Shown: in pieces, positions 82 to 55,577 of the stretch | How positions within the stretch are numbered: position 1 is the stretch's first letter | Layout of the letters: each line of letters opens with the position of its first letter | From: Stenotrophobium rhamnosiphilum | GTDB taxonomy: Bacteria > Pseudomonadota > Gammaproteobacteria > Nevskiales > Nevskiaceae | Assembly: GCF_003052265.1 (NCBI RefSeq) | Contig: NZ_QANS01000003.1 | Coordinates: 558,001-622,000 of the forward strand | DNA: 64,000 nucleotides | Direction: 5' to 3' | Position numbers and translations under genes: made by a program | Notes under the pieces: generated by a model | Database searches by the model: none | The model's input: only the letters and a program-made list of their open reading frames with translations | What the model was told of the DNA's origin: nothing

Positions 82-693
82 TCAATCGATCTGCCTCGGG
101 CAGCTTCGCGCCACTTGCTTGGCAATACGTCGTCCAATCTCAGCAGAGAGCATTCGCTCACGGCGGATGATCGCCACAGGCTTTGCTTGCTGAGCTGCGC
201 GGCGTCTTCTGAACAACCACAGCGCGCACGCAGCAGTGATGATCGAAAGCTCAACCAAAGCCGTCCAGTGAAAAACAAAATTCAGCAGCCACAAACGTTG
301 GTTATGCGGAACGCTAACCCACTTCATTAGTGTGGGATCAAATGGCCAAGCCCAGGCGATGCTGCCCCACGGCGTGTCCAGCAATAAATGCAGCAAGCCG
401 TTAGCGGCAAACAGCAATACACCCAGTGCTGCATTGCGTTGGCCCAACACCAGACACACAAGCAAGGCGATGCTGCTGGGCAGCGCCCAAGCGAATGGAT
501 AGTGCGTCCAATACAAATGATGGAACACAGGGTGCGGATCGAGGAATGCGTGCCAGATAAAATCCAGATCAGGCGCAATGCTGCCGAGCATTCCAAGCGC
601 AAGATAAGGCCGCAAATTGCGTGGCGGATTTTTGCAGGACGCGAGTATCGCGTGGCTGCACAAATAGCCTGCGGGTAAATGAGCGAGGAACAT
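82..693 (-). CDS. YdjM/DUF457-like inner-membrane metal-dependent hydrolase
   Basis: A 203-residue membrane protein. The N-terminus MFLAHLPAGYL is followed by a GSIAPDLDF motif near residue 40 and histidines in HHLYWTH. This is the pattern of the YdjM family (membrane-bound putative metal-dependent hydrolases, LexA-regulated in E. coli). About four hydrophobic segments are visible, and the tail is arginine-rich and cytoplasmic. I chose the ATG at 691-693 because a purine-rich AAGGA lies about eight bases upstream; a longer reading frame starts at 759 but would run into the preceding gene. It is co-directional with the M23 peptidase gene 22 bases upstream, so the two may form an operon. The substrate is unknown for this family. 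Confidence 0.7.
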   Translation of the reverse strand: MFLAHLPAGYLCSHAILASCKNPPRNLRPYLALGMLGSIAPDLDFIWHAFLDPHPVFHHLYWTHYPFAWALPSSIALLVCLVLGQRNAALGVLLFAANGLLHLLLDTPWGSIAWAWPFDPTLMKWVSVPHNQRLWLLNFVFHWTALVELSIITAACALWLFRRRRAAQQAKPVAIIRRERMLSAEIGRRIAKQVARSCPRQID

Positions 694-14606: not shown

Positions 14607-14632
14607 GCGATCGCTCCAGAGTTTTCAGGAAC

Positions 14633-14711
14633 GGGCGCCGTTACAACGGATTTGGGAAAACCCCGTCGAGCCTGGCCCACCTTGCGTGGGTCGCAGCGCC
14701 CCTCGACGGGG
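14633..14711 (-). promoter_or_regulatory. SAH riboswitch in the ahcY leader
   Basis: On the minus strand, the P1 arms CCCCGTCGAG and CTCGACGGGG enclose the conserved core GGGGCGCTGCGACCC and GGGCCAGG of the SAH riboswitch (Rfam SAH_riboswitch class). Downstream, CCGTT/AACGG forms the small extra hairpin, and GGCGCCC can pair with the core GGGGCGC as the class pseudoknot. It ends 27 bases before the ahcY start. Known members turn genes on when SAH binds and reject SAM. The position between metK and ahcY implies that ahcY and the genes after it respond to SAH while metK need not. Confidence 0.93.
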
Positions 14712-26141: not shown

Positions 26142-26225
26142 CACTCAAGCGCGCCGCTTTTTGGGGGCGCTAGCGTAGCGGAAAATGGCTATCGATTGCT
26201 TGATTGGGGCATCTCTGCACAAACA

Positions 26226-26279
26226 CCTCCGCTCCTGCGCATCCATGCGCCCGCGAAGGTACCGTACATCCTGTACATA
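26226..26279 (-). repeat. Terminator-attached GGA element, copy A
   Basis: Read on the minus strand, it follows the U-tract of the terminator at 26278-26310. Hairpin 1 is GTACA-GGA-TGTAC (26264-26276), then the GGTA linker (26260-26263). Hairpin 2 has outer arms CCTTCGC and GCGGAGG (26253-26259 and 26226-26232), inner arms GCGCA and TGCGC, apical TGGA, and the internal loop GG opposite AGGA. Three GGA triplets are unpaired. See copies at 32956, 42067 and 55527. Confidence 0.8.
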
Positions 26280-26310
26280 AAAAACCCCGCGGCCTTGCGG
26301 TCGCGGGGTT
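26278..26310 (-). terminator. Intrinsic terminator of the glycine-zipper lipoprotein gene
   Basis: On the minus strand CCCCGCGACCG pairs with the downstream CGGCCGCGGGG-type arm around a short AAGG-like loop, followed by six T residues. It begins 20 bases after the stop at 26330. The GGA element copy A follows without a gap. Confidence 0.88.
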
Positions 26311-32926: not shown

Positions 32927-32955
32927 AGCCCGCACACAGCGGGCTTTTTGTTTTT
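32927..32955 (+). terminator. Second terminator, adjoining GGA element copy D
   Basis: AGCCCGC (32927-32933) and GCGGGCT (32939-32945) enclose ACACA; the T-rich tail TTTTGTTTTT runs to 32955. This second terminator is about 30 bases after the first and is directly followed by the GGA element. Confidence 0.85.
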
Positions 32956-33006
32956 ATATGCAGGATGCGTGGTACATCGTGGGCGCATGGAAGCGCGGGA
33001 ACGATG
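32956..33006 (+). repeat. Terminator-attached GGA element, copy D (diverged)
   Basis: Hairpin 1 is ATGCA-GGA-TGCGT (32958-32970). The linker GGTA spans 32971-32974. Hairpin 2 has outer arms CATCGT/ACGATG (32975-32980, 33001-33006), the internal loop GG opposite GGGA, inner arms GCGC/GCGC, and apical ATGGAA. The stem sequences differ from the other copies but pairing is kept, whereas GGA, GG and GGTA are unchanged. It ends 50 bases before the mgtE start. Confidence 0.75.
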
Positions 33007-42066: not shown

Positions 42067-42117
42067 CCTCGCTCCTGCGCATCCTGCGCCCGCGAGGTAC
42101 CGTACATCCTGTACATA
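42067..42117 (-). repeat. Terminator-attached GGA element, copy B
   Basis: On the minus strand it follows the U-tract of the terminator at 42117-42148. Hairpin 1 is GTACA-GGA-TGTAC (42102-42114). The linker is GGTA (42098-42101). Hairpin 2 has outer arms CCTCGC/GCGAGG (42092-42097, 42067-42072), internal GG opposite AGGA, and inner GCGCA-GGA-TGCGC (42077-42089). The apical loop here is a bare GGA, identical in layout to hairpin 1. It lies antisense to the 3' region of yicC. Confidence 0.8.
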
Positions 42118-42148
42118 AAAAAGGCCTGAGGAAATCCTCAGGCCTTTT
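42117..42148. terminator. Bidirectional terminator between yicC and H1-like gene 2
   Basis: AAGGCCTGAGG (42121-42131) pairs perfectly with CCTCAGGCCTT (42136-42146) around AAAT. A-run on the left and T-run on the right make it usable by both convergent genes. Confidence 0.92.
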
Positions 42149-55497: not shown

Positions 55498-55526
55498 AAA
55501 AAGCCCGCCTAGTGCGGGCTTTTTTT
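55498..55526 (+). terminator. Intrinsic terminator after rpoZ
   Basis: AAGCCCGC (55501-55508) and GCGGGCTT (55514-55521) enclose CTAGT; seven T residues run to 55526. It is followed at once by GGA element copy C. Confidence 0.92.
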
Positions 55527-55577
55527 ATGTACAGGATGTACGGTATCCCGCGGGCGCATGGATGCGCAGGAGCGGGA
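55527..55577 (+). repeat. Terminator-attached GGA element, copy C
   Basis: Hairpin 1 is GTACA-GGA-TGTAC (55529-55541). The GGTA linker is 55542-55545. Hairpin 2 has outer arms TCCCGC/GCGGGA (55546-55551, 55572-55577), the internal loop GG opposite AGGA, and inner GCGCA-TGGA-TGCGC (55554-55567). It lies on the rpoZ strand within the 230-base gap before spoT; a likely spoT promoter with TATACT near 55691 is downstream. Confidence 0.82.

Follow-up and report, generated by a model that had tools for sequence, protein, structure and literature searches.

A patchily distributed palindromic repeat of Gammaproteobacteria with two GGA-loop hairpins, probably mobile and preferentially located behind intrinsic terminators

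The 64-kb stretch of the Stenotrophobium rhamnosiphilum genome analysed here (henceforth, the window) contains four copies of a short element that consists of two consecutive hairpins, HP1 and HP2, and each copy is located, on the same strand, directly downstream of the intrinsic terminator of a gene (Table 1). These are the copies reported in the first-pass annotation of the sequence, with coordinates that agree to within 1-2 bases with those obtained using a covariance model of the element (65-81 bits, E 2e-15 to 2e-19); the next-best match to the model in the window, at 629-688 (+), scores only 12.7 bits (E 0.13) and is possibly a decayed copy. The placement of all four copies immediately after a terminator is evident from the sequence, and the terminator stems indeed differ from one another, so that duplication of the element together with a single terminator is not the case. 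Among the four host genes that had been named, the Pfam matches support the glycine-zipper, L33 and omega proteins, but the remaining one, a 53-residue, K/A-rich ORF described as H1-like, has no Pfam match. The postulated two-hairpin layout is the exact predicted fold in three of the four copies; in the copy at 32955-33006, hairpin 1 is shifted by one pair and the loop-closing pair of HP2 is open. The RNA folding z-scores of the four copies range from -2.7 to -3.4. In copy 2, HP1 (ATGCA/TGCGT) and the HP2 arms (CATCGT/ACGATG) have both changed in a compensatory manner, and this copy has a diverged counterpart at the orthologous place in another genome of the same genus (G027); copy 3 occupies a spacer between convergent genes, with a YicC-like gene 20 nt away; and the 3' extension of copy 4 (GTGTTTGTGCAGAGATGC...) recurs at other copies of the element. 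The only match in the window at the Rfam gathering level is a SAH riboswitch at 14626-14710 (-), with 58 bits.

Table 1. Copies of the element and the terminators that precede them in the window (CM, covariance model)
Feature	Position	Strand	Support
Element copy 1	55526..55577	+	CM 80.8 bits; fold z -2.95
Sequence of copy 1: TAT + HP1 (GTACA-GGA-TGTAC) + GGTA + HP2 (TCCCGC/GG/GCGCA-TGGA-TGCGC/AGGA/GCGGGA)
rpoZ intrinsic terminator (AAAAAGCCCGC..GCGGGCTTTTTTT), joined to copy 1	55498..55526	+	sequence
Element copy 2	32955..33006	+	CM 65.3 bits
Terminator before copy 2, second of two behind rpmG	32927..32955	+	sequence; L33 Pfam match
Element copy 3, HP2 in triloop form	42067..42117	-	CM 74.7 bits
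Terminator of K/A-rich (H1-like) small ORF, before copy 3	42117..42146	-	sequence
Element copy 4 (HP1 + GGTA + HP2)	26227..26279	-	CM 69.7 bits
Terminator of glycine-zipper gene, before copy 4	26279..26308	-	sequence; conserved in G027
Whole copy 4 insertion, ~93 nt: HP1-HP2 + 3' extension (GTGTTTGTGCAGAGATGC...)	26187..26279	-	filled/empty site alignment

The covariance model (R1) is based on 33 distinct units that represent many genera. Of the 16 base pairs, 13 change on both sides in the alignment across genera, compared to 6.6 +- 1.1 in shuffled alignments, and the covariation score is 0.48 as opposed to 0.15 in shuffles; the same pattern is seen within the host genome and its near relatives. 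Because pairing was one of the criteria by which the training units were selected, the percentage of paired positions is inflated, but the double-sided changes are not explained by that choice. While the stems vary, the apical loops are constant, with the sequence (N)GGA closed by C-A/T-G. Two features originally thought to be shared do not hold across the family: the linker, which had been considered invariantly GGTA, reads [GT]GTA in most copies of the genome, and the internal loop reads NNGA across genera, so that GGA is not conserved there. The stems are almost purely Watson-Crick, with G.U pairs as rare as A.C (34 versus 32; 5 versus 3 in a second count), whereas the nearby terminators show an excess of G.U (27 versus 9); as a test for RNA-level selection, this comparison gives no RNA signal, and it is a weak test given that the parsing favours paired cells and that wobble cells are few. 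The 5'-terminal (T)TAT appears to belong to the element because a tandem case (L041) sits inside a TGGTGAT repeat.

The element is a member of a sizeable family. A search of the 3.96-Mb host genome (G000) with a core pattern yielded 26 places, 3 of them chance, and the covariance model (E up to 4e-4) detected 50 copies. Outside this genome, at least 115 sequence stretches contain the exact 21-base core TTATGTACAGGATGTACGGTA, and almost all of these come from Gammaproteobacteria; the genera among the matches listed include Colwellia, Rheinheimera, Nitrincola, Marinobacterium, Solemya symbionts, Thiolapillus and others. The distribution is nevertheless patchy because, among 117 relatives of the host, the model detects copies in only 12. 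The search of phage and plasmid collections produced no match, and a single IMG/VR contig matched, so spread by phages or plasmids was rejected. In agreement with the initial statement that no named element is known to have this layout, neither Rfam nor a literature search with the core sequence, which returned nothing, provided a named equivalent. The TwoAYGGAY motif, initially named as similar in spirit, gave no Rfam match, either at the gathering threshold or with E relaxed to 10. The CsrB/RsmXYZ small RNA families similarly gave no match at the gathering score, and the Rfam matches at E up to 10 were at chance level and confined to the terminator stretch (for rsmX, a score of 20.6, with the cut-off at 56), so that membership in a known Rfam family was rejected as well.

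The scan of the complete genome, which had been proposed as the check on the family, strongly supports the connection with terminators: 41 of the 48 independent sites are located directly behind a hairpin followed by a T-tract, on the same strand, and so are 74 of 115 sites in other genomes, among the matches listed, compared to 1.4% when positions were taken at random and 4.4% when they were matched for TTTAT. This strict strand and position could indicate that the element is a back-up terminator, or a 3' structure that stabilises the RNA of the host genes, but HP2 is not followed by a U-tract (median of 2 T in 8 nt), and most relatives have the same terminators without the element. A second terminator was accordingly rejected, and we consider this entire explanation to be exceedingly improbable. 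A role as a 5'-leader regulator was rejected, too, given that the orientation of the downstream gene is indifferent (22 co-directional, 27 opposite); together with the wobble statistics of the stems, this indifference favours an element that acts at the DNA level over a leader regulator. More generally, the view of the element as an attached part of terminators does not stand because the same terminators occur in relatives without it, and because it is also found at non-terminator sites (7 of the 48 in the host genome), within other repeats and within genes. The description that fits the element better is that of a mobile palindromic repeat that prefers terminators as insertion sites.

Evidence of insertion comes from several types of sites. 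In G027, the terminator that precedes copy 4 is conserved, but the sequence GGGGTTTTT is directly followed by the downstream flank, with ~93 nt missing; about 20 relatives have an rpoZ terminator that lacks the element. Insertions that preserve the reading frame of protein-coding genes are found elsewhere in the family and class (none were seen in G000): the element adds exactly 17 residues (DAQGCASAAGAGCAGAA) to the quinohemoprotein alcohol dehydrogenase of a relative, a stretch that is absent from the solved homologues (PDB 1kv9 and 1yiq), and approximately 16 residues to the alanine racemase of a relative. Three copies (L236, L251, L011) are found in the variable loop of another palindromic repeat (GAGGAATCT...AGATCCCTC; GTCATTCCGAACGCAGTGAGGAATCTT...AAGATCCCTCGCTGCGCTCGGGATGACA), uninterrupted copies of which exist elsewhere in the genome (L332-L336); the GGA element has thus been inserted into the loop of this second repeat at least three times. 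In five copies, the HP2 loop itself harbours a further HP1-GTA-HP2 unit, and many copies are organised in head-to-tail arrays or run into 48-nt modules ending with GCGCAGGAGCG. No target-site duplication is evident at the insertions, which is an argument against transposition. In several genomes (L264, L275, L280, L284, L286; L101, L103, L106, L126), the element is joined to a palindrome of the TTTGGTTACTTTCTT...AAGAAAGTAACTCG type, and in one of these (G119; L264, L275, L280, L284, L286), it occurs as inverted pairs ~140-330 nt apart.

Taken together, these observations make it likely, in our opinion, that the element is a non-autonomous mobile palindromic repeat of ~52 nt that inserts preferentially at the 3' ends of intrinsic terminators. 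The mobile unit would consist of TAT/GAT, HP1 with its (N)GGA loop, the xGTA linker, and HP2 with an NGGA apical loop and a 2x4 internal loop, and would spread within genomes and, patchily, between gammaproteobacteria. Insertion would be preferred in, or directly after, the T-tract, perhaps because the palindrome of the terminator provides DNA that is structured or single-stranded and because disruption here does no harm; occasionally, copies would land, instead, in other hairpin repeats or, with the reading frame preserved, in genes. Transposition would depend on an enzyme that acts in trans and recognises the hairpins, probably as single-stranded DNA. Two further findings speak against a mobile repeat. 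First, no mobilising gene was detected: none of the 61 loci of Y1 transposases discussed below has the element nearby, and no recurrent ORF was seen between or beside the elements, so a cargo or transposase gene in these positions was rejected. Second, of the three G027 copies, two occupy a site that also holds a copy in G000 (32955-33006 and C16:270665), with nearly every stem replaced by compensatory changes. These shared sites could have been retained for a long time because selection acts on the structure, in which case the element would not be simply selfish debris; repeated insertion at favoured terminators would explain them, too. Separately, in the gap-pgk intergenic region, the element is found at the same place in two genera (L281 of G027 and L268 of G036), behind terminator stems that are wholly different.

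Candidates for mobilisers are the RAYTs, the Y1 transposases that move REP elements. Like REPs, the element is a high-copy, mostly extragenic, imperfect palindrome (50 copies) that forms BIME-like arrays and inversions; the foot of HP2 is xGTA, with GTAG in nested modules, and the host range overlaps Chromatiales and Alteromonadales, so that it might even be the missing substrate of RAYT subclasses 2.1/2.3, for which no REP has been reported (PMC6006769). However, a search for Y1 genes in the host genome and 39 further genomes, which produced 61 loci (~1.7-3.4 kb each, from carrier genomes and from two relatives without R1 matches), revealed no element within 1.5 kb of any of them (with E allowed up to 1, the R1 model had 0 matches), i.e., no copies that flank a Y1 gene as REPs do; the GTAG/GTRG that characterises the 5' foot of REP hairpins is replaced by the GGTA/TGTA linker and appears only in some nested modules; and the subclass 2.1-like RAYT genes encountered here have different repeats, GGGGTCAGAGT. 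Furthermore, Y1 genes are altogether absent from 6 of the 26 carriers, and the single Y1 gene of the host genome (L027, G000:C16:92652-92933) encodes a transposase that is probably inactive or domesticated because its HUH motif is degraded to TEFH. With no copy in the vicinity of any of the 61 loci, the element does not qualify as a classical REPtron; an origin of this kind was rejected, and identity with the REP of a TnpA-REP system appears to be quite unlikely, but a Y1 enzyme may act on the element in trans. One of the subclass 2.1-like RAYT genes (L154:850-1250) is preceded by many copies of GGGGTCAGAGTAAAAATTACTC, and such repeats in front of RAYT genes have been described for 'TIRYT' genes (PMC3733652). 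Near the rpoZ terminator of a relative from another genus (L178, G045), we also observed GTAGGGCAAAGCAGGAGCAGTTGCCC, which resembles the nested GTAG module of L003/L010 and, judging from this resemblance, may link the element family to GTAG REPs.

Group IIC introns insert directly after intrinsic terminators (PMC4424553), i.e., at the same position behind the U-tract that the element occupies at most of its sites, and conceivably, it could be a passenger or derivative mobilised by the reverse transcriptases of these introns. Yet the unit of 52-93 nt contains neither intron RNA domains nor an encoded reverse transcriptase, the window has no Rfam intron match, and the insertions in genes and hairpin loops away from terminators do not fit such a source. 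We consider this possibility to be very remote.

Apart from mobility, the constancy of the loops on changing stems calls for an explanation. The SELEX consensus of CsrA is RUACARGGAUGU (PMC7652899), and HP1 (GUACA-GGAUGU) equals this consensus minus one loop base; a tandem copy, C20:321112, holds ACAAGGAUGU, an exact match. HP2 fits CANGGANG, and 45 of the 50 copies in the host genome contain two or more CA(N)GGANG motifs, so that paired GGA hairpin loops in the A(N)GGA(N) context typical of CsrA-bound RNAs are present. The element could, then, be an RNA-level CsrA/RsmA-binding module, a distributed sponge or a 3'-end regulator kept by selection, whereby the two hairpins, exposed in read-through transcripts or in transcripts of genes that contain a copy, would be clamped by one CsrA dimer. 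The presence of two sites in common with G027 despite the complete turnover of the stems is compatible with such selection. All 32 carrier genomes tested encode CsrA, and the CsrA of the host retains L4 and R44, residues that we take to be important in this protein; csrA, however, is nearly universal in Gammaproteobacteria, so its presence in all carriers discriminates nothing and proves little. Being located behind terminators, the element should be little transcribed from the upstream gene, the downstream genes point either way, and the stems lack the G.U excess of the nearby terminators. Judging by motif content, the paired hairpins could bind CsrA/RsmA when transcribed, but selective maintenance of the element as a binding module seems to us a rather doubtful possibility. 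More speculative still, and in our view unlikely, is the combined scenario under which insertion of the mobile family would place near-optimal CsrA/RsmA sites, spaced for a dimer, at the 3' ends of transcription units, with loops selected for CsrA binding, giving rise to a genome-wide, read-through-dependent sponge or 3'-end regulon.

The GGA element is a widespread repeat family without a name in Rfam or in the literature searched. If mobile, as seems likely, it would be a second kind of terminator-homing mobile element beside the group IIC introns, to our knowledge, the only others. Two questions follow, namely, which enzyme moves the element and whether the GGA loops recruit CsrA. In practical terms, the element will be encountered often when 3' ends are mapped, or small RNAs and CsrA targets predicted, in these bacteria.

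Among the known systems, REP, BIME and REPIN sequences are similar in that they are short extragenic palindromes present in many copies, patchy among species, clustered in tandem or inverted orientation and folded into an imperfect hairpin with an internal loop; the element differs from these in the absence of a GTAG foot in the main unit and of an adjoining RAYT, in the two tandem hairpins with fixed GGA loops and in the strong preference for terminators. With group IIC introns, it shares insertion directly after intrinsic terminators (41 of 48 sites) but is a 52-nt two-hairpin unit without a ribozyme or reverse transcriptase. The CsrB/RsmZ sponge RNAs and TwoAYGGAY (RF01731) also display paired GGA-loop hairpins with the CAGGAUG / ANGGAN signature; by contrast, the copies described here are dispersed and, apparently, mobile rather than being an independent small RNA gene, and do not match these Rfam families. 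Finally, the Rickettsia palindromic elements (RPE) are short palindromic mobile units that reside in frame inside protein-coding genes. In-frame occurrence in conserved genes is a trait that the element shares with RPE in relatives of the host only; judged by their description, RPE differ in hosts, size and structure, whereas the element described here is found mostly behind terminators.
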